Below, piece after piece: positions 8,210 through 27,828 of a stretch of 53,427 nt of DNA (its first letter is position 1; every line of letters starts with the position of its first letter). Source of the stretch: Cypionkella psychrotolerans (GTDB lineage Bacteria > Pseudomonadota > Alphaproteobacteria > Rhodobacterales > Rhodobacteraceae); contig NZ_LGIC01000010.1 of NCBI RefSeq assembly GCF_001294535.1, positions 1 through 53,427 of the forward strand, written 5' to 3'. The notes under the pieces are model-generated. The model worked only from the letters and a program-made list of their open reading frames with translations. It had not been told where the DNA came from and did not search any database. The translations under genes were made by a program, and so were the position numbers.

Positions 8210-8755
8210 ATGGCGCAAAATGCCACCATTTACAAAGTCGAGCTTTCGGTCTCGGACATGGATCGCCACTATTATGAGACCCATAAGCTGACCGTGGCCA
8301 AGCATCCGTCGGAGACCGATGAACGGCTGATGGTGCGCATTGTCGCTTTTGCGCTCAATGCCCATGAGAAATTGGAAATGACGAAAGGCATTTCAACGGA
8401 TGACGAGCCAGACATTTGGCAAAAAAGCCTGAGCGGCGAGCTTGACGTGTGGGTGGCCTTGGGGCTTCCCAGCGAGAAAGTGATGCGTCAGTCCTGTAGC
8501 AAGGCCGACCGGGTGATCGTTTATCCTTACGGCGGCAGAACGGCGGAAGTGTGGTGGGACAAGATCAAGGGCACCACCACGCGCTTTGAAAACCTGCAAG
8601 TGATCGGTTTTTCCGAGAAAGACACTGGCGAACTGGCCATGCTGGCAAGCCGCACGATGAAGCTTCAGATCAATGTTCAGGATGGCGATGTTATGGTCAG
8701 CGCCGGTGATCGCATCGTTTATGTTACCCCTTTAAAATGGAAGAGTGCTGCGTAA
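8210..8755 (+). CDS. yaeQ: YaeQ family protein
   Basis: 181 residues matching the YaeQ family: IYKVELSVSDMDRHYYETH at the N-terminus, AFALNAHEKLEMTKGIS, and ELDVWVALGLPSEKVMRQSCSK in the middle. YaeQ proteins have a PD-(D/E)XK nuclease-like fold, but no established enzymatic activity; E. coli YaeQ was reported as a suppressor of rfaH loss. ATG 8210 was chosen because the family begins at A-T-I-Y-K; the preceding in-frame extension is not conserved. Single gene, cytoplasmic. Confidence 0.88.
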   Translation: MAQNATIYKVELSVSDMDRHYYETHKLTVAKHPSETDERLMVRIVAFALNAHEKLEMTKGISTDDEPDIWQKSLSGELDVWVALGLPSEKVMRQSCSKADRVIVYPYGGRTAEVWWDKIKGTTTRFENLQVIGFSEKDTGELAMLASRTMKLQINVQDGDVMVSAGDRIVYVTPLKWKSAA

Positions 8756-8796
8756 TTCGAGGGTGCACGCTGCAAAGGCAGACTTAAGTTGCTCCG

Positions 8797-9270
8797 TTGT
8801 GTCCAATGGTCCTTGGCGCATTTGATGCCGCTTTGGACGACATCATCCGCATCCGCTATGGCACCGGCGCTTGGCAGCATGATCACAAGCTGCAACTCTT
8901 TGACGAACAGATCGCGCCCATCGCGTCGCCTGAACTCGCCCAAAGCGGAGGGCACTGGACGAAATGGCCGCGCATTGCCTGTTCCGGCCCACGCCCCGGC
9001 TGGACCGATTGGGCCACCCGCTTTGGCATCTCTACGACGCCGGTGCCCTATTTGCGGTTTGACACATTTCTATCCGCGCTCGGAGCTGCGCGCGCCGGTA
9101 GGGGAGTGCTCCTCGGGTCACTACCACTTTGTAAAGTGGATCTGGCCAGTGGGCGACTTGTCCGGCTTGGTGAGGAGGTACTACAGCATCACGAGAGCTA
9201 TTGGGCCATTGCCGGGCCAGATGCGATCGCGAGAGCCCAATGGGATCAGTTTGTGGAGGCGCTTGCCTGA
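8797..9270 (+). pseudogene. LysR-family regulator, C-terminal fragment (GcvA-like)
   Basis: About 155 residues corresponding to the C-terminal half of a LysR effector-binding domain: GAFDAALDDIIRIRYGTG, then LFDEQIAPIASPELA, FDTFLSALGAARAGRGVLLG, and a C-terminal W-A-I-A-G-P. Full LysR proteins are about 300 residues with an N-terminal winged HTH, and none of that is encoded upstream. The frame meets a stop (TAA) just before 8797 and the preceding gene is the unrelated yaeQ. The first codon would be TTG without a clear ribosome-binding site. It is most simply a 5'-deleted remnant. Confidence 0.75.
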
Positions 9271-10050
9271 CCATCTGCTGCATCGTCATTTTAGACCTGT
9301 CATGGTCCGATCGCCACTTAAGGAATTCTTAGGCAGAACATACTGCGTGATGAATGCTTGGCCGATCTGCTAGACCGTGCGTCAGGCTCCCGTGAACGTC
9401 AGAATTGGGCCGAGTCTTCCACTGCACCAGCGAAGGCTGTGGCATGCTGCTGTTTGGTCGAATGTCTGAGATGGGCTCGAAGCCGCCTTTCGGCGGCGCA
9501 GCAGAGGGGCAGCCCGGTCTGGCGCTGGCCCAGTCGACGCGGCCGGCCCTTAGCTGCCAGTCTAGCTCGATCCATGCTGCGGGGCAGCATTCCCAAATGC
9601 TGTCGCTCGACGTGTGCTGCAGCGAACGGAGGTGTCTGTTGTGCACAGCCCTTCGCGGCTGAGTTACGAGCGTAGCGGGCCGTAGTGCGACTTTGCCTAA
9701 GCTGACTTTCGGTCTCCGGGTGCGCTGCACCGCTGCATCCGGAAAGCTGTTGTTCAATCATGGTCCAGAAAGTGCCTCATCGCTATGGTCGAGCCGGCCC
9801 AGCAAGAGTGCCGTTTGGACCGATATGCCAGTTTGCGGTCATTCGTGAAGAAGCACTACTTTACAATAGAAATTTCAGATATCGCTCAGTACAGATGTCA
9901 TTGGCTTCAAAAGCATATCTCGACTCCCCGGGGCGTATCACTTTCAACTCGTGGCCGGGCTCATCCACTTGAGCGGTCGTAGCACTAAAAGTCCGTGATC
10001 TTATTGGGATCTATTCCACTCCGAGAAACTTTGACGGCAGACCTGATCTG
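9271..10050. other. 780 bp without a supported gene
   Basis: Contains copy 2 of the diverged repeat (9465-9609) and otherwise only short unconvincing frames. Probably decayed accessory DNA between the LysR remnant and the end of the minus-strand operon. Confidence 0.6.
9465..9609 (-). repeat. Diverged ~145 bp interspersed repeat, copy 2
   Basis: Reverse-strand partner of 5221-5365; the two flank the ABC importer, yaeQ and LysR remnant in inverted orientation. Confidence 0.6.
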
Positions 10051-11187
10051 TCACAGCCGCCCACTAAAATAGCCAGAGGCGATCTTGGCGGTAATCTCCA
10101 CCTGCGCGTTGATCGAGATGCGCTCAGCTGGGATTTCGATTTGGGTGTCAATCGTGATCCCAGCCGCCAACAATGCCGCACTTTTCAGGTTGCTCATCGA
10201 CACCCATTTCCAAATGCGTCGCACCCCAAGCCAATGCAAAACATCGGGGAACAGGGCCTGCAGCCGCATGTCTTCGACGCCTGCAACCGCGCAGGTGTGC
10301 TGAAAGTAGGCGGCAGGAACGTCGCCTGCATTCGCACGCTTGCGGGCGTTGTAAACCAGCAGCTTCATGACCTCTCCCAAAGCCCGCCCCTCTTTGCGAT
10401 TGTAGACCACGATCCCCAGCCCACCTGCCTGCGCGCCGCGGATGCATTCCTCGATGCCATGGATCAGATAGGGACGACAGGTGCAGATATCCGAGCCGAA
10501 CACGTCCGATCCGTTGCATTCATCATGCACGCGGGCTGTCACGCGCGCATGGCTTTGTCCAAGCAACGCCGGATCGCCAAAGATGTAGACGCTCGATCCG
10601 CCAATGGGCGGCAAGAATAGCTTCAGATCGGGGCGCGTCATCAGTTCGGGATACATCCCGCCGGAATGATCGACGAGGGCCTGCCGCATGGCGCCCTCGT
10701 CAACCTTCAGACGGGCGGCAATACCCGGCAGATACCAGACCGGCTCGATGGCGATTTTTGTGACGCATATCTCATTGTTTTCAAGCAAAACTTTGCCATC
10801 AGACCTCAGTGCGCCTTGCTGTACGGCCTGCGCGATTTCAGCAATGGCAAGGTGACCGGTGGTGATGGCAATCGACGGACGCAGGTTGCGGCCTGCCGCG
10901 ATATCCACGCGGAAATCCTGCGCTGTACGATGGCCCCAAGGATCAAAGGTGACAATCTTGGCCTTGTCCCGCCATTGCGGAAATGGCCCGATCGAAACGG
11001 CGGGTTGGGTGTCTTGATAGTCGGGTCGATGGTTCGGGCTAAGATCACCGGTTGCGACAGCCAAAGCGCGGTAGGTGGCATATGTGCCGGCGGGCACACC
11101 GATGGTGTTGCGGTCGGGCGCGGGCGAGGTGACTATCGGCCCACGCGACCATGCCGTTGCAGCCCCCCATTGGATCGGTGCGTTCAT
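10051..11187 (-). CDS. GTP cyclohydrolase II homologue, URC1 type
   Basis: 378 residues. The C-terminal half is the GTP cyclohydrolase II fold with all three zinc cysteines in correct spacing (Cys224, Cys235, Cys237 in DECNGSDVFGSDICTC). The loop NRKEGRALGE corresponds to the catalytic QEGRGIGL region of RibA. The long N-terminal part (VTFDPWGH, WYLPGIAARL, GGMYPELMTRPDLKLFLPP) and the end (AGVEDMRLQALFPDVLHWLG) match my memory of URC1-type proteins, known from the yeast URC uracil-catabolic pathway, rather than riboflavin RibA. The usual partners (URC4/DUF1688, uracil phosphoribosyltransferase) are absent. It would open a purine or pyrimidine ring of a nucleotide. Last gene of a six-gene operon; the ATG (AGGAGC upstream) overlaps the preceding stop. 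Confidence 0.85.
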   Translation of the reverse strand: MNAPIQWGAATAWSRGPIVTSPAPDRNTIGVPAGTYATYRALAVATGDLSPNHRPDYQDTQPAVSIGPFPQWRDKAKIVTFDPWGHRTAQDFRVDIAAGRNLRPSIAITTGHLAIAEIAQAVQQGALRSDGKVLLENNEICVTKIAIEPVWYLPGIAARLKVDEGAMRQALVDHSGGMYPELMTRPDLKLFLPPIGGSSVYIFGDPALLGQSHARVTARVHDECNGSDVFGSDICTCRPYLIHGIEECIRGAQAGGLGIVVYNRKEGRALGEVMKLLVYNARKRANAGDVPAAYFQHTCAVAGVEDMRLQALFPDVLHWLGVRRIWKWVSMSNLKSAALLAAGITIDTQIEIPAERISINAQVEITAKIASGYFSGRL

Positions 11188-11786
11188 GACAAAGCTCCTT
11201 CTAACGGAGTGGTCGCAATGGCTTGCCATAGGTGGCGGGCATCGGGGTCGCGACCGCCGCGTGCCATGAACAGAATCTGTTCGATGCGGCTGGCGGCGAT
11301 TACCAGTGCGGCGACAGGCACCAGCCATGTAGCCCCGGTCAGCGCCACTGCGGGCCAGAGCGCAAACAGCACCAGTGCCCCGAGCCGTGCCGAGTGAAAG
11401 TGAAACATGATGACGCGTCCGGTCATCGCCCAAGACACCGCAAGATAAGCAATGGGTGCGATGAACAGTACTGCGAGCGCGAGGGAATAATCTGCGTAAA
11501 GGCTCGGCAAAGCCAGCCACAAAAAGACAGCGATGGAGAGCGAGAATACATTGTCGATCACCGAATCCAGCACGGCGCCAAACTCAGAACAGCGTCCGGA
11601 TCGCCGTGCCAGCCAGCCATCCAGCCCATCCGTCGCCACTGCCAGCACATAAAGCGCCAAGGCCGCCGTATTCATGTGGCGCATTAGCAAGACCACAATC
11701 GGCGGGATCAAGACGCCGCGCAGCAAGGACACCAAGTTTGCGGTTTTGAACGCGCCGCCTTCATCCAGCAGATAGGTCACGCTCAT
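11184..11786 (-). CDS. CDP-alcohol phosphatidyltransferase family protein
   Basis: 200-residue integral membrane enzyme. The full catalytic signature is present: D53-x2-D56-G57-x2-A60-R61-x8-G70-x3-D74-x3-D78. Enzymes of this family transfer a phospho-group from a CDP-activated alcohol, usually CDP-diacylglycerol, to a hydroxyl acceptor (glycerol-3-P, inositol-P, serine and others). About five or six hydrophobic helices follow. The acceptor is unknown; the neighbours suggest it might be a sugar alcohol or nucleotide product made by the operon. It overlaps both neighbours by 4 bp, so its expression is coupled to the cyclohydrolase and Rieske genes. Not a convincing PgsA or PssA on context. Confidence 0.85.
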   Translation of the reverse strand: MSVTYLLDEGGAFKTANLVSLLRGVLIPPIVVLLMRHMNTAALALYVLAVATDGLDGWLARRSGRCSEFGAVLDSVIDNVFSLSIAVFLWLALPSLYADYSLALAVLFIAPIAYLAVSWAMTGRVIMFHFHSARLGALVLFALWPAVALTGATWLVPVAALVIAASRIEQILFMARGGRDPDARHLWQAIATTPLEGALS

Positions 11787-12040
11787 GGCCGGTTTTCCTC
11801 AATGATCAAACGCAGGGTGGTGGGGCGGGCGATCAACCGATCGGCAGAATAGGCATTGCCGTGCATCGGACAGACCACGGCATCGCTGTCGTTGACGTAG
11901 CCAAACTTCAACGGACCGCCGCGATGCGGGCAAAGGTTGTACACCAGATACAGCGCTCCCTGATGCGACAGCAGAAAATAGTCGCGGCCATCGCGAGTGA
12001 TGGGGGGCAAGTCGCGGCCGATCCATGTATGCGCTGCCAT
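11783..12040 (-). CDS. Rieske [2Fe-2S] ferredoxin
   Basis: 85-residue stand-alone Rieske protein. Cluster ligands are Cys37 and His39 in CPHRGG and Cys57 and His60 in CPMHG, with 17 residues between the two boxes, as in soluble Rieske ferredoxins. No signal peptide or membrane anchor, so cytoplasmic. It lies directly between the iron-enzyme gene (2 bp gap) and the phosphatidyltransferase gene (4 bp overlap). A natural inference is that it delivers electrons to the haem-oxygenase-fold enzyme encoded just upstream. Confidence 0.9.
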   Translation of the reverse strand: MAAHTWIGRDLPPITRDGRDYFLLSHQGALYLVYNLCPHRGGPLKFGYVNDSDAVVCPMHGNAYSADRLIARPTTLRLIIEENRP

Positions 12041-12042
12041 GG

Positions 12043-13236
12043 CTACACCTCGCGCCCGATGGACCCGGCCGGAAAGCTGGCAAAGGCGGCAGCCGAGATT
12101 TGACCAATGCCACCGACCTGAAGTCTGGTCGAACCCGCGGCACTATCAGGCGTAACGCACCGCCCCGTCGCGTTGACTGCGGCCAAGCCATAGCTGGCCT
12201 CGCCCGCCTGCACCGCAGCATCAAAGGCTTGGCTCACCGCCAGCAGATGCCGATCTGCGACACCAAAGGCGGCGCGGGTCAGTTCTGCGCCCAAGATGAT
12301 CTCTTGCCCAACATCCTCGCCAAAGCGGGCGACCAGCGGCTTGACCACCTCATTCACCACCATATCCGAGTGATGAATGTCGATATGGGCATGTTCGCCG
12401 AAATAGGTGGCATCCACGGTCGGATGGTATTTGCGCAGATGGCGGTAGTGATCGCCAGTCGAGCGCTGATAGCTGGTTTCGGCATAAAGCAGGAAACCGA
12501 TCTGGCGGAAGAAGTTGCGCGGGCTTTGAAACAGCGAATGGATAACATTGTGCAGCGCAAGCGCAGGAGTGTCGAACAGCGGCCAATAGCCGTTGTACTG
12601 TTCAGACAAGCCAAATCCGCGCAAGGTTTTGCGGTACAGCACGCTGTGTTTTTTGTCATGCACGCCGTAGCCAAATTCGTCGATCAGAATGCGGAACAGC
12701 GCCGATTGCGGCGGGCCGTATTCCCCAATCACCCCCAAAGCCGAGGCAGAGGCTTCCGCCAGCAGGTCAGTGGACGACTGAATCAAGAAGTTCCGATAGA
12801 GATGCTCGCGCTCGTCAATTCCATCCAGCCACAGCAGGAAATCGCTAGGCGGGGCGGATTGTATGCCGCCCAACATATCGTCGATGTAATCGGCGCAGGT
12901 CTGGATCGTCACCTCCGCAGCAACTCGCTCGGCCATCGGTCCGATCAAAGCGGTCTCTAGCGCGCTGCGGTGCTGATCCAGCCGCAGCATGGAGGCCGGG
13001 TCGTAGTGACGGCGCATCTGATCCACCACCGAGCCGTTTGCGACATCCGGCAGCAACACAAACCGCCCCTGATAGCTGCGCATCAACGCTTGATGCTGCA
13101 CATGCTCCATCAGTTGCAGTGAGTGGCTGTCTGCGAGGCTCGGGTCGTCAATCCGCAGATCGTAAACTGCAGGTGGCGCGTCACCCGTCCGCTCACGCAA
13201 GTCCGCACCAAGGATCAAAAGCTCATCGCGTGTCAT
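12043..13236 (-). CDS. Iron-containing redox enzyme family protein (haem-oxygenase-like fold)
   Basis: 397 residues. The segment DEFGYGVHDKKHSVLYRKTL (about 186-205) and the helix FGEHAHIDIHHSDM (279-292) match the E-[FY]-G-x-G...H and E/H-x-H-x-D-x2-H patterns of the iron-containing redox enzyme family. That family has a haem-oxygenase-like fold and includes non-haem di-iron oxidases that cleave C-C bonds or oxidise amines. The protein is longer than many members, with an N-terminal domain of about 110 residues of unknown role. ATG 13236 was chosen because it overlaps the RibD-like stop (ATGA); an upstream in-frame extension to 13296 would run into that gene. The substrate is unknown. Confidence 0.75.
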   Translation of the reverse strand: MTRDELLILGADLRERTGDAPPAVYDLRIDDPSLADSHSLQLMEHVQHQALMRSYQGRFVLLPDVANGSVVDQMRRHYDPASMLRLDQHRSALETALIGPMAERVAAEVTIQTCADYIDDMLGGIQSAPPSDFLLWLDGIDEREHLYRNFLIQSSTDLLAEASASALGVIGEYGPPQSALFRILIDEFGYGVHDKKHSVLYRKTLRGFGLSEQYNGYWPLFDTPALALHNVIHSLFQSPRNFFRQIGFLLYAETSYQRSTGDHYRHLRKYHPTVDATYFGEHAHIDIHHSDMVVNEVVKPLVARFGEDVGQEIILGAELTRAAFGVADRHLLAVSQAFDAAVQAGEASYGLAAVNATGRCVTPDSAAGSTRLQVGGIGQISAAAFASFPAGSIGREV

Positions 13237-13901
13237 TCGGGTGTTCCTTTCAGCGGCTCGTAAATTGAAACGCCGATCCCCCCGATCAGCCGCCAATCGA
13301 CAACCTGCCAGCGCGACAGCGCCATCCCAAGGCTACCTGCGTAAGCCGCGAGATAGGTTGGAGCATCCACGGCCCCACTGATCACCGGAATATGTTTGAT
13401 GACAATGCGGTTCACCAAACCTGCCGCGAACAACCCGTGCAAAAGGCGGCTGCCGCCTTCCACCATCAGACTGCCAACGCCCCGCGCAGACAGCCGCTTG
13501 GCAACCTCCTTCAGATCCACGACAGTCTCACCGCAGTCCATCAGGCTTACGCCGAGATGGGCTGTTAGGCGATCACGCACGGCATGCGGCAGGGTCTGCG
13601 GCACGGCGAACAGTGTCGGAAGGCCATCACTCAGAATATGGCTGCCCGCAGGAATATTGCCGTCATTCGTGGGAATTACCCGCAGAGGGTTGCGGCCTAT
13701 CACATGGCGGACGGTCAGTTCGGGATTATCAGCGCGAACAGTGCCTGCCCCCACCATGATGGCATCATGCGCCGCGCGTTCGCCGTGAAACCATTGGCGC
13801 AACTCGGCTCCGTAGAAGTCGAACAGGGCCTTGCTGGACAGACCGTGGCCCAGTGTCATACAGCCATCAATCGTCAATTCAGAAAACGTGGTGATTTTCA
13901 T
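13233..13901 (-). CDS. RibD C-terminal-type reductase (dihydrofolate-reductase fold)
   Basis: 222 residues corresponding to the NADPH-dependent reductase half of RibD, without the N-terminal deaminase domain. Visible motifs: FSELTIDGCM, GAGTVRADNPELTVR (nucleotide-binding loop) and the conserved VEGGSRLLHGLFAAGLV near residues 165-183. In riboflavin synthesis this fold reduces a ribosylamino-pyrimidine phosphate to the ribityl form. With a cyclohydrolase II homologue in the same operon, a related reduction is plausible here. Coupled by 4 bp overlaps to both neighbours. No lumazine or riboflavin synthase gene lies in the window. Confidence 0.85.
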   Translation of the reverse strand: MKITTFSELTIDGCMTLGHGLSSKALFDFYGAELRQWFHGERAAHDAIMVGAGTVRADNPELTVRHVIGRNPLRVIPTNDGNIPAGSHILSDGLPTLFAVPQTLPHAVRDRLTAHLGVSLMDCGETVVDLKEVAKRLSARGVGSLMVEGGSRLLHGLFAAGLVNRIVIKHIPVISGAVDAPTYLAAYAGSLGMALSRWQVVDWRLIGGIGVSIYEPLKGTPE

Positions 13902-14851
13902 GACGCTTGCTCCGGTTGGTCGCGTCGGGCGAACGCCAGGGCAACCAGCACCAAGCTGGCCAGAAGGAACGGCAAAACGGTGCGCATGGCGCGATACATA
14001 ACCAGCGCCGTGGTGACCGCGGATTGATCAACCCCCTGCATACCCAGCAGAATTCTACCTTCAAAGGCCCCGACTCCGGCAGGAATATGGCTTAGGACGC
14101 CTGCGCCCACCGCCACCACAAACAGTACAAAGAACGACGCGACATCGCTTGCCCCCTCGGCAGGCAAAAAGACATAAAGCACTGCAGCAGATCCGGTCAG
14201 ATCCACCAATGCCGCACCACATTGCGCCAGCGTGACACGCCGTTTCAGTAAGGTAAACCTTTGGCCAACCAGCATGATATGCCTGCCATCGGCCTGCCAT
14301 ATCATCAGCCTGGCAACGCCCAGCAGCAGCGCGACGCCCAATCTTCCGCCGTGCGATGTCAGTCCGGCGCGCATGGTGATTTCGGGGTCCAATAGCAAAA
14401 CCGCTCCAATAATTGCCGCAGCCGTGACCCAGAACGCAACCCACGAGGACAGCACAACAGTCATCAATGCCCCGATGCCCGCCACGGTGTCGCGGTAGAA
14501 CACATTTCGCACCATCGCGCCCGTGAGCCACGGAAAACCGATGAAATTCGTCACGCCGTAGGCTACGGCCCCTGCCGCCGCTGCCCGACGGTTTGAGATG
14601 CCAGACAACCGCAGATGACGGACCGCAATCACATCGTAGGCAACCAGTCCGCAAAAGCTGAATCCGGTTGCCAAAGCTGCCGCAATCAAGCTTTCGGCGG
14701 AAAGGTCACCCACAGATGCTAGGATATCGCTCCATTGAACTTGTCTAAGCAGCCAAAACGCCAACGTCATGACGGCTGCGGTGACTGTCGCGTACAGGAC
14801 GTATTTATGCGCCGAGGTTTGCTTAAACAGTGGCGATGAGATGCTGAACAT
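13898..14851 (-). CDS. UPF0104/LPG-synthase-type transmembrane protein (flippase-like)
   Basis: 317 residues and strongly hydrophobic, with about eight membrane helices. It resembles the UPF0104 (YbhN, lysylphosphatidylglycerol synthetase TM region) family: GVTNFIGFPWLTGAMVRNVFY in the middle and LSHIPAGVGAFEGRILLGM near the end are the recognisable signatures. Related domains in MprF flip lipids across the membrane; others have no proven role. It is the first gene of the minus-strand operon and its stop overlaps the RibD-like start. Start uncertain: ATG 14851 gives a normal N-terminus, while a GTG at 14968 would add a polar 39-residue leader that looks unrelated. Confidence 0.78.
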   Translation of the reverse strand: MFSISSPLFKQTSAHKYVLYATVTAAVMTLAFWLLRQVQWSDILASVGDLSAESLIAAALATGFSFCGLVAYDVIAVRHLRLSGISNRRAAAAGAVAYGVTNFIGFPWLTGAMVRNVFYRDTVAGIGALMTVVLSSWVAFWVTAAAIIGAVLLLDPEITMRAGLTSHGGRLGVALLLGVARLMIWQADGRHIMLVGQRFTLLKRRVTLAQCGAALVDLTGSAAVLYVFLPAEGASDVASFFVLFVVAVGAGVLSHIPAGVGAFEGRILLGMQGVDQSAVTTALVMYRAMRTVLPFLLASLVLVALAFARRDQPEQAS

Positions 14852-15233
14852 TCGCCATCCATAATATGCGAGATCGTCGTGCCATCTGACATCGACATAC
14901 AGTTGAACGCACGGCTCGCAGGATGGTTCCGAAGCAATGCCCTCGGTACTTTCGAAGTGGACGCTCACTGCCTATAGGTCGGATAGGACCAGTGTTTTCG
15001 GCACAGCCATCGCTGTTGTGCAATCACTCGGAACCGCTCATGCGTGGGCGCGCGTGATGGTCCAGGTCTGGATGCGCGATTCAACTCTCCAGCCATTTAT
15101 TCAATTTAGAGTGGTGCCGACCCCGACAAACATGCTATATTGCCTTAGATCGTTGCCTCACCACCTCGGGGTTAAACGCGGTCCTGCCGAGTGATGGCTC
15201 GCTTCGCGAGTTTTCGGCCCATGGGGGCCAATT
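14852..15233. other. Divergent intergenic region, 382 bp
   Basis: Lies between the minus-strand operon and the plus-strand sensor kinase and should hold both promoters. A GGAAC at about 15030 resembles the -35 of stress sigma factors but has no convincing -10 partner. No riboswitch-like structure (FMN or other) was recognised. Confidence 0.5.
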
Positions 15234-16286
15234 ATGCCAACTAAATCTACAGTGTATGTCGAAGCGCCAAGCACGCTTGCAGTGGTGGTCTTCTCCAACG
15301 AGCCACTGCTGTTCCTTTCGGCAGATCTTAAGATCATCGCCGCCAGCATTTCGTTTTGCAGAGCCTTTGACATTGCCCCCGCGACAATTGTTGGCAGACA
15401 CCTTAGCGCGCTTGGGGATGGCGAATGGGCGATACCCAAGCTGACCTCGTTGCTGAATGCAACGGCCTCGGGCAGCGCAAGGATTGAAGCATATGAACTT
15501 GATCTAAAGCGACCCAATCAAAAAACACGGCAACTGGTTGTCAACGCGCAGATCTTAGACGACGGCGAGAAGGATCATATCCGGTTGCTAGTGGCGGTTA
15601 CAGACGTGACCGACGCGCGCGCTGCCGCCCGGCTGAAAGATGATTTGCTGAACGAAAAGGCGATTTTGATTCAAGAAGTGCAGCACCGCGTTGCCAATAG
15701 TCTTCAGATCATCGCCAGCGTTCTGATGCAAAGCGCGCGCCGGGTGCAATCCGACGAAGCGCGCGGCCATCTTCAAAACGCCCATCATCGCGTGATGTCG
15801 ATTGCGGCAGTGCAAAAGCAGCTTTCCACGTCAAAGGGCGGTAAAGTGCCGCTAAAAGCTTACCTGACCCTACTGTGTGAAAGCCTTGGCGCATCGATGA
15901 TCGCGGATGAAGACCGCCTCTCCATCGCCGTGGATGTCGACGACAGCTCGGTCGAAGCCGATGTTTCGGTCAGCTTGGGGCTGATCGTCACGGAACTGGT
16001 GATCAATGCGCTGAAGCACGCTTTCCCCGATCAACCAAAGGGAAAAATCACGGTCAGCTACCGGTCTTCAGACTGTGACTGGACACTGATAATCGCCGAC
16101 GATGGCATTGGTATGCCAGTCGGTCGGGCAGCACCCAAACCGGGCTTGGGCACTGGCATTGTCGAGGCGCTGACCAAAAACCTTCAAGGCGAACTCGAAG
16201 TCAGCAGTGCTGAACCCGGCACCATCGTGACCATCAGGCATCAGGCGGACGCGCAAGACCAAGCCGCCGTTCCAACGGCTGCATAG
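15234..16286 (+). CDS. Sensor histidine kinase, HisKA_2/HATPase type
   Basis: 350 residues with no membrane segment. A PAS-like N-terminal domain (about 20-130) ends in the usual DVTDARAAA linker. The HisKA_2 dimerisation helix follows, with the phospho-acceptor His151 in QEVQHRVANSLQII. The HATPase has ELVINALKHAF (N-box), ADDGIGMP (G1) and GLGTGIVEAL (G2). This soluble kinase class in alphaproteobacteria often feeds the PhyR-NepR-EcfG general stress response or other single-domain regulators. The next gene, 72 bp downstream, is a receiver protein and a likely partner. Confidence 0.87.
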   Translation: MPTKSTVYVEAPSTLAVVVFSNEPLLFLSADLKIIAASISFCRAFDIAPATIVGRHLSALGDGEWAIPKLTSLLNATASGSARIEAYELDLKRPNQKTRQLVVNAQILDDGEKDHIRLLVAVTDVTDARAAARLKDDLLNEKAILIQEVQHRVANSLQIIASVLMQSARRVQSDEARGHLQNAHHRVMSIAAVQKQLSTSKGGKVPLKAYLTLLCESLGASMIADEDRLSIAVDVDDSSVEADVSVSLGLIVTELVINALKHAFPDQPKGKITVSYRSSDCDWTLIIADDGIGMPVGRAAPKPGLGTGIVEALTKNLQGELEVSSAEPGTIVTIRHQADAQDQAAVPTAA

Positions 16287-16358
16287 GAACCAAAATGCCG
16301 CCGAAGCGCTGTAATCGCGGGGATCGCAGAAATCCCGTTTCATATAAACGAGCAATAC

Positions 16359-16739
16359 ATGAAGAACGGTAGAGCAGTCGTACTGGTGGTGGATGACAGC
16401 GCGCTTATTCGGATGGGAGCAGTCGATCTTGTGCAATCCGCAGGCTATGAGTCGCTAGAGGCACAAGATGCCGATGAAGCAATCCGCATCCTGGAATCGA
16501 GAGACGACATTGATCTGGTGTTCACCGACGTTCAGATGCCGGGCACGATGGACGGGATCAAACTCGCGCATTACATCCGTAACAGATGGCCGCCCGTGAA
16601 GCTTATCGTTGCATCGGGGCAGGCCATTCTTGACGAAAGCAGTCTGCCCCTAGGCAGCCGTTACTTCGCTAAACCCTACACCGATCACGCAATAACCGAC
16701 GCAATGGCCCGCCTGCTTGCGAAAGACAGTGCCGCCTAA
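16359..16739 (+). CDS. Single-domain response regulator (CheY-like receiver)
   Basis: 126 residues forming one receiver domain: acidic pocket Asp12/Asp13, phospho-acceptor Asp57 in VFTDVQMPG, switch region VASG (about 84-87) and Lys105 in FAKPY. There is no output domain, so it acts by protein contact or as a phosphate sink. The FAKPY signature (Lys followed by Pro-Tyr) is common in stand-alone receivers linked to alphaproteobacterial stress and HWE/HisKA_2 kinases. Downstream of and likely paired with the kinase gene. Convergent with the esterase gene 54 bp further on. Confidence 0.88.
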   Translation: MKNGRAVVLVVDDSALIRMGAVDLVQSAGYESLEAQDADEAIRILESRDDIDLVFTDVQMPGTMDGIKLAHYIRNRWPPVKLIVASGQAILDESSLPLGSRYFAKPYTDHAITDAMARLLAKDSAA

Positions 16740-19669: not shown

Positions 19670-21718
19670 TCATGCAAGGTTGCGGATCGTCGCTTCGCGT
19701 GCCCAATAACGCCGTTTGGCGGTTTGAGGAAGGTCGCGGTAATGTCCCACCCCCTCGTCCGGTTCGATGCCTGCACGTGCAAGAATGACCTTTGAGCCAT
19801 TGCAATGACCGACCGCCTTCAAGTGCACGAAGGCATCACTGACAAACCCAACAGCCGCCGAGTCTTTGGTCAGCTTTTCAGCCACCTCTGGCGCAAGGAT
19901 CATGGCAATCGCATCGAACAACACAGAAGGCGACCCAGCCAGTTGGCCATCGGCTTTCATCTCGCCGCCTTTCAGCTTCAACACACCAACCTTCGGCGCG
20001 ACGGTGAAAACGCTGCCACCTTCCGCCTTGATGGTCGCAATGAGTTTGTCTATCTCGGCTTTGTCAGAGCCTTCGCCAAACAGCAGCCCGATCTTGCGAC
20101 CTTTCAGTGTTTGCTGCCAGTTTTTCTGGATCGAAAGCGCATCAGATGGAGCAAGATTTATTGGCGCGCGGAACGGTTTCGACGCTGGGGGCAAGGCCGT
20201 GCCGATGCCATCGGCGACGCGCTGCGCCAGCGCAAGATCAACATTTTGCAGATTACGGAGAACACGTTCGCGGACGTGATCAAGCGCGACCTTCGACAGT
20301 TCAAACACGAAAGCCGATGCGATATGGGCCTGCTCATTTTCGGTTTGCGAACACCAGAACATCCGCGGCTGGCTGTAATGATCACCAAAGGTTTCCGCGC
20401 GGATGCGCAGCTTTTCTCCCGTAACTTCTTGCGGTGAAGTCACAAATCCCGTCGCACTGGCACGGGGGCCGGGGTCTTCACCAGCTTGGTCCAGACTGTT
20501 CGGCTCGTAATTGGCGCGGCCCTTCGGCACAGCGGATTGCATCAGCCCGTCGCGCATCATATTGGCATAGGGGCACTTCGGCGCATTGATCGGAATCTGG
20601 TGGAAATTCGTCGTCCCCAACCGTGATTTCTGCGTGTCCAGATATGAAAACAACCGCCCTTGCAGCAGCGGGTCATCAGAAAAGTCGATCCCCGGCACGA
20701 TGTTTGACGGCAGGAACGCCACCTGTTCATTCTCGGCGAAATGGTTGTCTGGATTGCGATCCAGCACCATGCGGCCAATCACCCGCAGCGGCACGATATC
20801 TTCCGGGATGATCTTGGTCGGGTCCAGCACATCATACGGCAGGCTGTCCGCCAAAGCCTGATCAAACACCTGCACCGCAAAATCCCATTCGGGGAAATCG
20901 CCAGCCGCAATCGCTTCATGCAGGTCGCGGCGGTGGTAATCGTTGTCGGCCCCCTGCAATTTGGCGCTTTCGTCCCAGACCAGCGATTGCATACCCAGAC
21001 GCGGACGCCAGTGGAATTTGACGAAATGAACATTGCCTTCAGCGTTCACGAGCTTGAAGGTATGAACCCCAAAGCCCTCCATCATCCGCAATGATCTGGG
21101 AATGGCCCGATCAGACATCGCCCAGATCACCGTATGCATGGTTTCCGGCATCAATGAGACGAAATCCCAGAAAGTGTCATGCGCAGATCCCGCCTGCGGA
21201 TAGCCCTTGTCCGCCTCCATCTTCACCGCATGGATGAGATCGGGGAATTTGATCGCGTCTTGGATAAAGAACACCGGAATGTTGTTGCCGACGAGATCCC
21301 AGTTGCCCTCATCCGTGTAGAATTTCACCGCAAAGCCGCGCACATCTCGCGGGGTATCAACCGACCCGGCACCACCTGCCACCGTCGAAAACCGAGCGAA
21401 CAGCGGCGTTTTCTTGCCCTTCTCGGCAAACAGTCTGGCGCGGCTGAGCTCTGGAATAGGGTCGGTGCATTCAAAATAGCCATGTGCCGCCGACCCACGG
21501 GCATGAACGATCCGCTCGGGAATACGCTCGTGGTCAAAGTGAAAAATCTTCTCGCGCAGGATGAAGTCTTCCAACAGGGTCGGCCCCCGCTGCCCCACCC
21601 GCAAGCTGTTCTGGTTGTCGGAGATCGGAATGCCATGGTTAGTGGTCAATGCCGGGCCGCCCAGTTGCTGCGTTTCTCCGGCATTTCCAATTTCAGTCTG
21701 ATAGGTCTGACGTGCCAT
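19670..21718 (-). CDS. katE: Catalase, large-subunit clade (HPII type)
   Basis: 682 residues, the length of large-subunit monofunctional haem catalases, which disproportionate H2O2 in the cytoplasm. Catalytic His72 is in RIVHARGSAAHG, distal Asn145 in DLVGNNIP, and the haem ligand Tyr359 in RLFSYLDTQ. The C-terminal flavodoxin/DJ-1-like domain typical of HPII is present (about 530-682, KIGLLFGEGSDKAEID). No signal peptide. It stands alone next to the stress operon, and katE genes of this type are often under general stress control; no convincing EcfG promoter was found upstream. Confidence 0.93.
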   Translation of the reverse strand: MARQTYQTEIGNAGETQQLGGPALTTNHGIPISDNQNSLRVGQRGPTLLEDFILREKIFHFDHERIPERIVHARGSAAHGYFECTDPIPELSRARLFAEKGKKTPLFARFSTVAGGAGSVDTPRDVRGFAVKFYTDEGNWDLVGNNIPVFFIQDAIKFPDLIHAVKMEADKGYPQAGSAHDTFWDFVSLMPETMHTVIWAMSDRAIPRSLRMMEGFGVHTFKLVNAEGNVHFVKFHWRPRLGMQSLVWDESAKLQGADNDYHRRDLHEAIAAGDFPEWDFAVQVFDQALADSLPYDVLDPTKIIPEDIVPLRVIGRMVLDRNPDNHFAENEQVAFLPSNIVPGIDFSDDPLLQGRLFSYLDTQKSRLGTTNFHQIPINAPKCPYANMMRDGLMQSAVPKGRANYEPNSLDQAGEDPGPRASATGFVTSPQEVTGEKLRIRAETFGDHYSQPRMFWCSQTENEQAHIASAFVFELSKVALDHVRERVLRNLQNVDLALAQRVADGIGTALPPASKPFRAPINLAPSDALSIQKNWQQTLKGRKIGLLFGEGSDKAEIDKLIATIKAEGGSVFTVAPKVGVLKLKGGEMKADGQLAGSPSVLFDAIAMILAPEVAEKLTKDSAAVGFVSDAFVHLKAVGHCNGSKVILARAGIEPDEGVGHYRDLPQTAKRRYWAREATIRNLA

Positions 21719-22708
21719 TTGTGCTGCCTTTTCAATGGTTGTAGAGCCTGGATTACTTCCAAGAGTCCGGTCCGAAGGTGAGGAACGTGGGCAGGGTCTA
21801 CATCGAGTTTCGGCCGTAATGGAGGCTCAGCTAGAGAACGGTGTCGAAGGGAATTGGTTCCTGTTTGCCGACATCGGTGCGTTGGCAAACCTCCGATTTC
21901 CAAACCAATCGGATTTTGCAGCGGTCAGTTAGATTAGGAGGTGGCCTGACCCAAGACTGGGACTATCGAGTATGGCCACTTTTACGGCTCTGGGTTTACA
22001 GGCCCTTGTGCAACAGACAAAACAAACACTGGTAGCCGTATTCACTGGAGCTACGCTAGCGCGCCGTGCGCCTGACCTCGTTTATGCGCCCAATTTGCCG
22101 GACGACATCAATCTCTAAGATGGGCCGATGAGCGCGGGCCTGGCCGGTCGCCCCTAGGCCGACGGTCAGGCAGAGATATATTGGTTGAAATGCTTGCCGT
22201 TTGCGTCACCCCGCAAGGTTGGCGCCGCGCTTAAGCCGAAGGTCAGCTTTCGAGCGATGCTGCGACCGCAGTGCTGCATCGCCATCAGTCAGCCTTCCGC
22301 CCTTTGCGACGATCTACAACGAGACGACCCCGCAGCAGGTGATCGCAAGTGAACATCAAGGCGCAATCTTCCTCCGAATCACTCGTGCCACAGCCACCGT
22401 TTCATCCCCGACAAACGCCGCATTTTCTTCAAACGATGGTATTCCACAGCGATTGGCCCAAAAACCGCGCAGTTTTTTGCACACCACAAAACGACACGAA
22501 ATGTCGCCTTGAACGCTTTACGTCTGATCTTCAAATTTAAAGGGTGTTTAAAGGGTCGTTAAACGGGGGTTTAAACGGTCGTTTAAAATCGGCTTGTTTT
22601 CCGCTCGATGTGCGCGGTCAAGCCTCTGATTTTTATGTTGAATTGGTAGATTTATTCTGCACCCTGAGAGTTCTGTGGTGCCGCTCGGGTCCACAATTGG
22701 AGGGTGGG
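21719..22708. other. 990 bp without a supported gene
   Basis: Marks the transition from chromosome to a degraded mobile element. A row of tandem GTTTAAA repeats sits at 22535-22592. The rest shows only short frames with no recognisable protein. Confidence 0.6.
22535..22592 (+). repeat. Five tandem 11-12 bp GTTTAAA repeats
   Basis: Units begin at 22535, 22546, 22558, 22569 and 22581, with consensus GTTTAAAcGGGTC. They are spaced by about one helical turn upstream of the DUF5681-like gene. The arrangement resembles iterons or a repeated operator. Confidence 0.75.
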
Positions 22709-25591: not shown

Positions 25592-26089
25592 ATGCAGATC
25601 ACGATAGAACGGAAAAACAAGGTCTTGGCGCGACAGGCCGTGCACACCGCAGCTACGGTCGCACTGCTTGACCGGGACGGGCTTGTCGCCTTGTGGTCTG
25701 AGATCATGGGCAGCCCAGCACCGCGCGGCATGAGCCAAGCCTTGCTGCACGCCTTCCTGGCCTTTGAGGTTCAGCAGCGGTCAGACGGCGGCTTAACCAA
25801 AGCGGACCTGGATCGCTTGGACCGCATCGGACTGGGGAAAGTCCGTGCGGTAGCGCCAAAGATGACTGCTGGAGCGCGGTTCCTGCGGGAATGGAATGGT
25901 GTCACCCATGTCGTGGAACGGATCGCCGCAGGCTACCTCTGGAACGGCAAGAGCTTTGCCTCTCTGTCCGCAATCGCCAAAGAAATCACTGGTGCACATT
26001 GGTCGGGGCCACGGTTCTTCGGCGTGAGTAAGGCGGGTGCGGGAAGCAAGTCTTCCGGCGCGCGACGCAAGTCAGGGGCGCAGGCGTGA
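25592..26089 (+). CDS. DUF2924 domain protein
   Basis: 165 residues. The C-terminal half shows the DUF2924 signature FLREWNGVTHVVERIAAGYLWNG then KSFASLSAIAKEITGAHWSGPRFFG. DUF2924 genes sit directly upstream of large serine recombinases in many alphaproteobacterial prophages and islands, as here. The start AGAAGG-ATCAG-ATG is acceptable. It overlaps the recombinase by GTGA. Biochemical role unknown; perhaps an accessory or directionality protein, by position only. Confidence 0.85.
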   Translation: MQITIERKNKVLARQAVHTAATVALLDRDGLVALWSEIMGSPAPRGMSQALLHAFLAFEVQQRSDGGLTKADLDRLDRIGLGKVRAVAPKMTAGARFLREWNGVTHVVERIAAGYLWNGKSFASLSAIAKEITGAHWSGPRFFGVSKAGAGSKSSGARRKSGAQA

Positions 26090-27828
26090 ACGCCCCGGCA
26101 TCACCAAGCCGAAGCCTAGCCGTGCGCTGCGCGATCTACACCCGCAAATCCACGGAGGAGGGGCTGGAACAGGGCTTCAACTCGCTCGACGCGCAATATG
26201 AGGCTTGCGCCGCCTATGTCGCGAGCCAACGCCATGAGGGCTGGAAGCTCCTGCCCGAGCGCTTTGACGATGGCGGCTTGTCCGGTGGCACCATGGAGCG
26301 ACCCGCCTTGCAACGCCTGCTGGCCGAGGTCGAAGCCGGGCGCATCGGCATGATCGTGGTCTATAAGATTGACCGGCTCACTCGCTCGCTTGCCGACTTC
26401 GCGCGACTGGTGGAACAACTGGATCGCCGCGGATGCTCGTTTGTGTCGGTGACGCAGGCATTCAATACCTCAACCTCGATGGGCCGTTTGACGCTCAACG
26501 TTCTGCTCTCATTTGCCCAATTTGAACGCGAGGTCACCGCAGAGCGCATTCGCGACAAGATCGCCGCATCAAAGCGCAAAGGTCTGTGGATGGGCGGCAC
26601 CCTGCCATTGGGGTATGATCCCCCCAAAGATCCTCTCAAGGCCCGTGTCTTGGAGATCAATCCAACCGAGGCCGAAACCGTACGGCGTCTGTTTGCTCTC
26701 TACCTCACGGCTGGCACCTTAGGTGCCACGCGGATCGCTGCGGCAGAGCAGGGCCTGAGCCCACGCAAATCTGATCATGCGACAGGTCGTGCAGCAGGGG
26801 AGGCAACTGGCGCAAGCATTGCCCCGTTCTCGAACGGCCAGCTTCACTATCTGCTGACCAACCCGGTCTATCGCGGTTTGATCCGCCACAAGACCTTGGT
26901 CCATCCGGGCCAGCATGAGGCGATTATCGACGAGGTGCTGTGGTCCGCAGTGCAGACAAAACTGCAAGAGACCGCAGCCCGCAAGCGTCAGCGCCCTGTC
27001 GCGCCCGCTGTTGCGACAGAAGCAGATTCACCAGTCGCCGCGCCGCAAAACTCTGTGGAACCCTCGGCCCCGCTGATGGCAAAGCTGTTCGACGAAACTG
27101 GCGATCGTCTGACCCCCAGCCACACCAACCGCCACAACCGCCGCTTTCGTTATTATATCTCGCGCCGCCTGATCACCAAAGGGGCTGACCCGACGGGCTG
27201 GCGCTTGCCAGCACCACATCTGGAAGCGGTGGTACTCGAGGCGCTGCGAGACTATCTGCGCACCCGGGCAAGGCAGCATGACGTGCTGTTGCAACCTGCG
27301 GCAAACACGGCTGGCATCTTGGCCGAGAGTTTGGACAGGCTATCGGGCGAGGCAGCAGCCCAAGATCTCTGGCTGCTGATCTCAGAGGTGCATATCGCAG
27401 CCGGCAGTATGATCATACATTTGAGCCGGGAGGCGTTGGCCGAAAGTCTTGGTCTGCATCCCGATGCCCTGAACCCCGGCGTGATGAGCGTTCAACAGGC
27501 CTTTCAACGCCGCCGTCGCGGTGCAGAAACTCGATTGGTTACCGGCACCGTTGCACCCCAGCCTGACCCAGTGCTGCAGCAGAACCTCGCACGCGCGCAT
27601 CGCTGGGCAAACCGGTTGCGTAAAGGGGAAAGCCTGAGCCAGATCGCGAAGGCCGAAAACTGTTCCGACAGCCTCGTCCGATCCCGCGTCGCCTTGGCGT
27701 TTCTGGCCCCGGATCTACAGCGCGCCATCCTCGATGGAACAGCGCCATCCCATCTGACGACCAATCTGATCGTGCGCATGACCCTGCCGCATGACTGGCA
27801 AGAGCAAGCCAAGGCTCTGGGACTCTAG
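26086..27828 (+). CDS. Large serine recombinase (site-specific integrase)
   Basis: 580 residues. The resolvase N-terminal catalytic domain has the nucleophile Ser22 in YTRKSTEE, then IVVYKIDRLTRSLADFARLV and FAQFEREVTAERIRDKI. A recombinase domain (LPLGYD, RRLFALYLTAGTLGATRIA) and a zinc-ribbon/coiled-coil-like C-terminal region follow. This class integrates or excises phages and islands without other host factors. It overlaps DUF2924 and lies 180 bp from the 3' end of tRNA-Ser, so the element end may be between them. The gene is intact. Confidence 0.9.
   Translation: MNAPASPSRSLAVRCAIYTRKSTEEGLEQGFNSLDAQYEACAAYVASQRHEGWKLLPERFDDGGLSGGTMERPALQRLLAEVEAGRIGMIVVYKIDRLTRSLADFARLVEQLDRRGCSFVSVTQAFNTSTSMGRLTLNVLLSFAQFEREVTAERIRDKIAASKRKGLWMGGTLPLGYDPPKDPLKARVLEINPTEAETVRRLFALYLTAGTLGATRIAAAEQGLSPRKSDHATGRAAGEATGASIAPFSNGQLHYLLTNPVYRGLIRHKTLVHPGQHEAIIDEVLWSAVQTKLQETAARKRQRPVAPAVATEADSPVAAPQNSVEPSAPLMAKLFDETGDRLTPSHTNRHNRRFRYYISRRLITKGADPTGWRLPAPHLEAVVLEALRDYLRTRARQHDVLLQPAANTAGILAESLDRLSGEAAAQDLWLLISEVHIAAGSMIIHLSREALAESLGLHPDALNPGVMSVQQAFQRRRRGAETRLVTGTVAPQPDPVLQQNLARAHRWANRLRKGESLSQIAKAENCSDSLVRSRVALAFLAPDLQRAILDGTAPSHLTTNLIVRMTLPHDWQEQAKALGL

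Follow-up and report, generated by a model that had tools for sequence, protein, structure and literature searches.

We analysed a 53,427-nucleotide stretch of the genome of Cypionkella psychrotolerans (assembly GCF_001294535.1, contig NZ_LGIC01000010.1, positions 1 to 53,427; hereafter the window), and identified on its minus strand, between positions 10051 and 14851, a packed six-gene operon that may be a biosynthetic pathway of the EcfG regulon, making the head group of a phospholipid from a uracil nucleotide. We give this reading a probability of about one half. It draws on computed gene content and order, the co-occurrence of the cyclohydrolase URC1, the exchange between operon-borne and catabolic URC1 copies, the conservation of ligand and motif residues, and a promoter site.

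Direct reading of the open reading frames (ORFs) and their junctions placed the genes in the order flippase-like protein, RibD_C-type reductase, haem-oxygenase-like diiron enzyme (HDO), Rieske protein, CDP-alcohol phosphatidyltransferase and cyclohydrolase. Four junctions are ATGA overlaps (flippase/RibD, RibD/HDO, Rieske/CDP-alcohol transferase and CDP-alcohol transferase/cyclohydrolase), and the HDO and Rieske genes are separated by a 2-bp gap. This is the arrangement given by a first-pass annotation of the same DNA, and the gene identities it had named from motifs were recovered by Pfam and NCBIfam searches; its proposals of a single operon, a pathway, a URC1-type cyclohydrolase and a lipid-joining enzyme also stand. 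The flippase, which it had counted as part of the set, proved to be accessory.

The conserved core consists of the RibD_C, HDO, Rieske and CDP-alcohol transferase genes in fixed order, and was found in 17 loci, one of them cut by a contig end: the window, one Rhizobium leguminosarum record and 15 loci from a genome scan. The gene order thus extends beyond one strain, to 16 other alphaproteobacterial loci, as a search for the same gene set in other genomes, suggested at the outset, established. A protein search of plasmid records recovered HDO sequences approximately 61% identical to that of the window on R. leguminosarum megaplasmids, and the R. leguminosarum locus counted here (L003) carries the RibD_C, HDO, Rieske, CDP-alcohol transferase and cyclohydrolase genes in the order of the window, without the flippase. 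The 15 loci returned by a genome scan with an alignment as query included a Rhodobacterales metagenome-assembled genome, Notoacmeibacter, Phenylobacterium, Caulobacter and other alphaproteobacterial assemblies. All 15 have the order RibD_C-HDO-Rieske, and the CDP-alcohol transferase comes next in 14; the contig of the other locus (L021) stops inside the Rieske gene, losing most of that gene and any transferase gene, and it was left out of the Rieske and CDP-alcohol transferase alignments, which have 16 rows. A genome scan with a single HDO protein as query found nothing; both scans rest on short exact peptide patterns, and the locus counts miss members. Two further R. leguminosarum records (L004, and a third record, H2) were excluded from the count. 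In the former (strain RCAM0610, 8327-12248) the HDO and CDP-alcohol transferase frames look interrupted, and neither is in the gene table.

The cyclohydrolase gene follows the core in 9/17 loci, and the flippase-like gene lies beside the core in two, the window and Notoacmeibacter (divergent, 33% identical), a count limited by the less than 200 bp of upstream sequence in L014 and L023. The flanking genes vary between loci, and once the core and its shadow frames are set aside, no ORF family was common to more than six of the 17, indicating that conservation attaches to the block as such. Few genomes carry the operon: HDO matches in the family of the window were confined to its own genome and one other among 295 genomes, and a four-row HDO profile (E 1e-20) recovered only its own core and four distant HDOs in a class sample of 385 genomes. 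A description of the operon was absent from the papers listed by searches of the open-licence literature, not every one of which was aimed at it, and no characterised system with this combination of genes was found among them, consistent with the first-pass view.

The last gene of the operon (10051..11187, minus strand, 378 aa) encodes, judged by its sequence, a cyclohydrolase of the uracil-catabolism (URC1) type and not RibA. It contains GTP_CH_N (2.7e-65) and GTP_cyclohydro2 (8.5e-10) Pfam domains, and scores 579.3 bits against the NCBIfam model PRK07198 (cut-off 403), compared with 37.7 bits against the RibA model TIGR00505 (cut-off 205.85). Its closest solved chains are 7eev and 7ej3 (5e-143), with RibA 2bz0 far behind (2.2e-6). 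We take 7eev and 7ej3 to be UTP cyclohydrolase, an enzyme reportedly the subject of Zhang et al. (ACS Catal 2021), and the operon protein is likewise a predicted UTP cyclohydrolase. A UTP cyclohydrolase paper of 2021 appears as a reference for the URC pathway in the available text of PMC12507026. The residues C224, C235, C237, Y279 and R308 are invariant across nine operon and 36 catabolic URC1 sequences. By our assumption from E. coli RibA, they would be the zinc cysteines and the catalytic tyrosine and arginine. Operon and catabolic URC1s share a mean identity of 58%, and none of the 15 alignment columns that shift between them has a functional reading. In a tree of 45 URC1 sequences the nine operon copies form one side of a branch with support of 100/99, although long branches lead to three of the operon copies and bootstrap support is not fully settled. 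The seven usable URC1 copies from core genomes without an operon URC1 group among the catabolic sequences; the truncated G688 copy (L043, L052) was excluded.

The distribution of URC1 ties the core to uracil chemistry. A strong URC1 match was found once in each of the 15 core genomes searched, and in 16/16 with the C. psychrotolerans genome itself (one copy, in G688, is cut by a contig end, and G675 holds a second, weak match), compared with 35/384 other genomes of the class sample (Fisher 5e-16, kinship ignored). URC4 (DUF1688), which consumes phosphoribosylurea in uracil catabolism, was present in six of the eight core genomes that lack an operon URC1 and in none of the eight that have one (Fisher p 0.007, kinship again ignored). 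In these six the operon either lacks URC1 or is cut before reaching it (L021), and URC1 instead adjoins URC4, as it does in 28/29 loci outside the core genomes, counted in the 29 of the 35 other URC1 genomes for which loci were returned; the exception, L075, has other genes downstream. No URC4 match was found in the C. psychrotolerans genome (G000), for which the six matching genomes of the same 16 serve as a positive control; 14 control genomes were all without a match. The presence of the operon URC1 requires two changes on a core-protein tree, and the simplest reading is that an ancestral operon copy was lost where a catabolic URC1 supplies the same product. Since every core genome searched has URC1, and since the operon copy is exchanged for a URC4-linked one, the core probably draws on the URC1 product, which it would share with URC4, starting from UTP opened towards phosphoribosylurea and not from GTP. 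The first-pass annotation had proposed that the cyclohydrolase opens a nucleotide ring; the likely starting point is here corrected to a uracil nucleotide. It had also noted that uracil-catabolism partners were missing, which holds for URC4 in the whole genome. The link to uracil chemistry is nevertheless real, because in six relatives URC1 lies next to URC4 and not in the operon.

The same data bear on whether the operon could instead break uracil down by another, oxidative route, with the RibD_C enzyme, HDO and Rieske protein taking the place of URC4. Operon URC1 and URC4 are mutually exclusive in the 16 genomes, as such a replacement would predict, yet six genomes hold the core and URC4 together, it is not obvious what a phosphatidyltransferase would do in a breakdown route, and the stress promoter site described below precedes 12/17 cores but only 1/36 catabolic URC1s (250 bp searched), making this explanation very unlikely. 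The operon also differs from the known URC1-URC4-Upp pathway, with which it shares the homologous URC1, in lacking both URC4 and Upp, and the product is apparently incorporated into something and not degraded. That the genes form one pathway fed by URC1 is very likely.

The second gene (13233..13901, minus strand, 222 aa), present in 17/17 loci, encodes a RibD_C-type reductase without a deaminase domain (PF01872 2.7e-35, 122.4 bits, cut-off 24.1). It falls below the cut-offs of the riboflavin models TIGR01508 (103.4/186.45 bits), TIGR00227 (102.8/150.15) and TIGR00326 (73.2/156.35). Its best profile matches, 2azn (3.6e-39) and 6p8c (1e-38), are chains labelled as phosphoribosylamino-pyrimidine reductases, 2azn as a putative 5-amino-6-(5-phosphoribosylamino)uracil reductase, and the stretches GAxTVxxDxPxLTVR and EGG are kept in the alignment. 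Reduction of an N-ribosyl to an N-ribityl group is the natural guess for its reaction, because an N-ribosyl group of this kind is also present in phosphoribosylurea. The pairing of a cyclohydrolase with a RibD_C-type reductase resembles riboflavin biosynthesis by RibA and RibD, where ring opening precedes conversion of a ribosyl to a ribityl chain; the operon differs in having a cyclohydrolase of URC1 type, no deaminase domain and no lumazine or riboflavin synthase.

We also considered a start from GTP, in which the cyclohydrolase would act as a GTP cyclohydrolase II and the RibD-like enzyme on its usual riboflavin intermediate, the product being flavin- or pterin-like, whether a lipid or another compound. 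The chains closest to the reductase and the GTP cyclohydrolase II names carried by the cyclohydrolase would fit this scheme. We judge it quite unlikely, given the distance from the RibA models and the presence of URC1 elsewhere, six times beside URC4, in all eight core genomes without an operon copy. Were the RibA product the substrate, the host would obtain it from its own, expected riboflavin pathway and have no need of URC1. On our reading, the label 'GTP cyclohydrolase II' on URC1-type proteins can mislead.

The third gene (12043..13236, minus strand, 397 aa) encodes the HDO (Haem_oxygenas_2, PF14518, 1.7e-26), whose best solved relative by profile search is the N-oxygenase SznF (9.7e-52). 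The best fold match of a predicted model (mean pLDDT 87.7) is SznF 6vzy, at E 1.8e-15 with an rmsd of 7.4 and a TM, by query length, of 0.73; the top 18 fold matches are chains of the N-oxygenases SznF, HrmI and RohS, with CADD, FlcD, BesC and UndA behind. Three histidines and four carboxylates of the HDO (E161, E187, H197, E253, H282, D286 and H289) are invariant in 17/17 loci, and align with SznF E189, E215, H225, E281, H311, D315 and H318, which we take to include its iron ligands. E253, opposite SznF E281, is the fourth carboxylate, added to six usual ligand positions. In the available text of PMC13108848, SznF hydroxylates guanidine nitrogens, and a ligand set with an extra carboxylate, a glutamate given for SznF without residue number, is described for SznF and the ferritin-like N-oxygenases CmlI and AurF and estimated for approximately a quarter of HDOs. 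The ligand set alone is no proof of reaction, because HrmI is an N-oxygenase with a smaller set, and because so many HDOs share the larger one (PMC13108848). The enzyme is thus a candidate SznF-like N-oxygenase, and we propose N-hydroxylation because urea and guanidine groups are closely analogous; an N-oxygenated head group is conceivable, and we hold it tentatively. The HDO differs from SznF, the streptozotocin enzyme, in that no cupin domain, such as SznF has, was found in its Pfam scan, and in its Rieske neighbour and nucleotide and lipid context.

The Rieske [2Fe-2S] protein encoded immediately downstream (11783..12040, minus strand, 85 aa; PF00355, 6.8e-11) retains C37, H39, C57 and H60 in all 16 aligned sequences. 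A Rieske gene is annotated beside an HDO gene in four other plasmid contexts, and a fifth record is unannotated; because this pairing recurs, the protein is probably the dedicated electron donor of the HDO. The first-pass proposal of an oxidation by an iron enzyme with a Rieske donor is thus retained with a probable donor, and refined to an SznF-like candidate. The plasmid pairs, at approximately 8.5-10.5 kb of records from Gloeothece, Pantoea, Methylobacterium and Azospirillum (L005, L006, L007 and L008), adjoin ATP-grasp, methyltransferase or transporter genes, suggestive of a wider two-gene oxidation module.

The fifth gene (11184..11786, minus strand, 200 aa) encodes a CDP-alcohol phosphatidyltransferase (CDP-OH_P_transf, PF01066, 1.9e-17). 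The motif of this family is DxxDGxxAR-x8-GxxxDxxxD, and it is complete in the operon enzyme, with D53, D56, G57, A60, R61, G70, D74 and D78 invariant in 16/16 aligned sequences. The catalytic motif is shared with PgsA, ClsA and PssA, but the nearest NCBIfam models, PgsA and ClsA, both score below cut-off (PgsA 40.7 bits vs 109.1), and the nearest solved chain is the serine transferase PssA (7b1k, 1.2e-7). We asked whether the closest relative of each gene is simply a known enzyme of riboflavin, uracil or phospholipid metabolism; this is so for the cyclohydrolase (URC1) and not for the set, because the RibD_C enzyme and the transferase reach no named cut-off.

The first gene (13898..14851, minus strand, 317 aa) encodes a flippase-like membrane protein of MprF N-terminal type, for which no Pfam match was found at E 0.1. 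It aligns to positions 4-303 of the 841 of the MprF model NF033480 (2.5e-44, 151.8 bits, cut-off 600) and to the solved MprF 6lvf (3.8e-21). The arrangement recalls the MprF aminoacyl-phosphatidylglycerol system, in placing an MprF flippase half beside a head-group enzyme, although the window protein lacks the synthetase half and occurs in so few loci.

A phospholipid product is somewhat favoured. The main competitor is a soluble, N-oxygenated metabolite derived from a uracil nucleotide, such as a metal binder or radical scavenger, with the CDP-alcohol transferase acting on another donor or substrate. We consider this unlikely: a flippase was not found in 15/17 loci (two of which, L014 and L023, have the short upstream sequence noted above), and the neighbours of the plasmid HDO-Rieske pairs are more like those of small-molecule clusters, but the transferase gene is present in 16/16 loci that reach that far, where by the ORF coordinates used it overlaps the Rieske gene or directly adjoins it, and retains its full catalytic motif.

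We investigated the control of the operon through the published EcfG site, GGAAC-N16-CGTT (PMC3892343, PMC7083833), a perfect match to which lies at 14906..14930 (minus strand), between 79 and 55 bases ahead of the first ATG. The favoured start of the flippase-like ORF is this ATG at 14851; the longer form, from a GTG at 14968, is less likely because the promoter-like site falls inside it. A search of the 150 bp upstream of the first gene, allowing one mismatch and a spacing of 16 or 17, recovered such a site in 12/17 loci, at -51 to -104, compared with a mean of 0.57 and a maximum of three loci in 300 dinucleotide shuffles, a mean of 0.53 and a maximum of four in random stretches of the same loci, and at most five for 359 permuted motifs. 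Among spacings from 10 to 23, only 16 and 17 exceeded one locus, and sites were found upstream of other ORFs in 15/350 regions. Scans for sigma-70 promoters and for terminators gave matches at chance level only. The C. psychrotolerans genome encodes PhyR, NepR and EcfG side by side (L087), and PhyR_sigma2 matches were found in 15/16 core genomes, all except G675 (2.7 Mb); G682 and G687 have weaker matches only. Taken together, it is likely, from these sequence comparisons, that EcfG controls the operon in most hosts. The words cyclohydrolase, Rieske and phosphatidyltransferase are absent from the main text of three EcfG regulon papers, PMC3892343 and PMC7083833 among them.

Co-regulation without a shared pathway, in which stress genes are kept together through transfer as a block, was also weighed. 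Differing flanking genes are in keeping with it, as are stress-like ORFs seen by eye near several operons (and, by Pfam, YflT in L003), but the fixed order, the overlapping starts and the occurrence of URC1 throughout the core genomes searched render it highly improbable, the least probable of the explanations considered.

Two other features of the window touch on stress. Its only other perfect EcfG-type site (21837-21861, minus strand) lies approximately 119 bp upstream of a long catalase gene (19670-21718, minus strand; PF00199, 6e-178). A PAS-HWE/HisKA_2 histidine kinase, followed by a response regulator, is encoded at 15234-16739 (plus strand), divergent from the operon, and similar-looking ORFs were seen by eye near the R. 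leguminosarum operon (L003). Kinases of the HWE/HisKA_2 type coordinate the general stress response (PMC12148442, in the text available).

In the pathway that we propose, URC1 would act on UTP, opening its uracil ring and releasing pyrophosphate, to give a phosphoribosyl-ureido compound and then phosphoribosylurea. The RibD_C enzyme would reduce the N-ribosyl to an N-ribityl group, like its relatives in riboflavin synthesis, and the SznF-like diiron enzyme, with electrons from the Rieske protein, would oxygenate a urea nitrogen. The CDP-alcohol phosphatidyltransferase would then move the phosphatidyl group from CDP-diacylglycerol onto the ribityl (phosphate) part, for a head group of ribityl-urea type, and in some hosts, including that of the window, the MprF-type flippase may move the lipid outward. 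We infer every substrate, the order of the reduction, oxygenation and transfer steps, the N-oxygenation and the lipid product. The most explicit form of the proposal, which we regard as doubtful, is a phospholipid made under stress with an N-hydroxy-ribitylurea head group, derived from UTP through URC1, the RibD_C enzyme, the HDO with its Rieske protein and a dedicated CDP-alcohol transferase, and serving, anchored in the membrane, to bind metal or trap radicals. An operon URC1 would then be missing where a catabolic copy exists because a single enzyme would serve both the lipid pathway and uracil catabolism.

Several observations weigh against the uracil-to-phospholipid reading. RibD_C and CDP-alcohol enzymes act on varied substrates, and neither operon member reaches a named cut-off; the core includes neither a phosphatase nor a reductase that would serve the Rieske protein. 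The fourth carboxylate of the HDO is not decisive, being estimated for around a quarter of HDOs and lacking in HrmI (PMC13108848, as available). The PDB entries 7eev and 7ej3 are labelled 'GTP cyclohydrolase II', and no URC4 was found in the genomes of L014 and L023, both without an operon URC1; adjacency of URC1 and URC4 cannot be judged there, because the contig ends at URC1. Five loci (L003, L011, L016, L020 and L021) lack an EcfG-type site at one mismatch: L003 and L011 need two, L020 has only a two-mismatch site, at -110, and L016 and L021 have none at two. GGAAC and GCAAC are the two most frequent EcfG -35 boxes, with AAC nearly invariant (PMC7083833, available text), and two of the 12 sites, in L014 and L019, break this AAC. 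Two perfect sites in 53 kb are not significant, as 17/100 shuffles have as many. Finally, 13 of the 15 fetched loci are metagenome-assembled and 11 have Caulobacteraceae names, so the counts are not independent.

We know of no system that makes a membrane lipid by way of opening a pyrimidine nucleotide, and no precedent for joining the two was found among the papers listed by the searches of open-licence literature. If the reading is true, pyrimidine nucleotide opening would be joined to membrane lipid synthesis, the alphaproteobacterial general stress response would gain a lipid output, and the known range of SznF-type N-oxygenases would widen to a substrate linked to a nucleotide or a lipid, with a Rieske protein as donor.

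Among other loci, a protein of approximately 440 aa is encoded directly upstream of the core in L016 (1194-2513), L020 (7914-9236) and L021 (6766-8088), three of the loci without an EcfG site; none was found in the 400 bases upstream of this ORF, and the L020 copy has no Pfam match. Elsewhere in the window, a LysR-type ORF at 8797-9270 (plus strand) contains a substrate-binding domain only, with no DNA-binding domain in that frame. An ORF at 26086-27828 (plus strand) looks by eye like a large serine recombinase and, with methyltransferase-like and ParB-like ORFs seen by eye at approximately 23.5-25 kb, suggests a possible mobile element on the contig.

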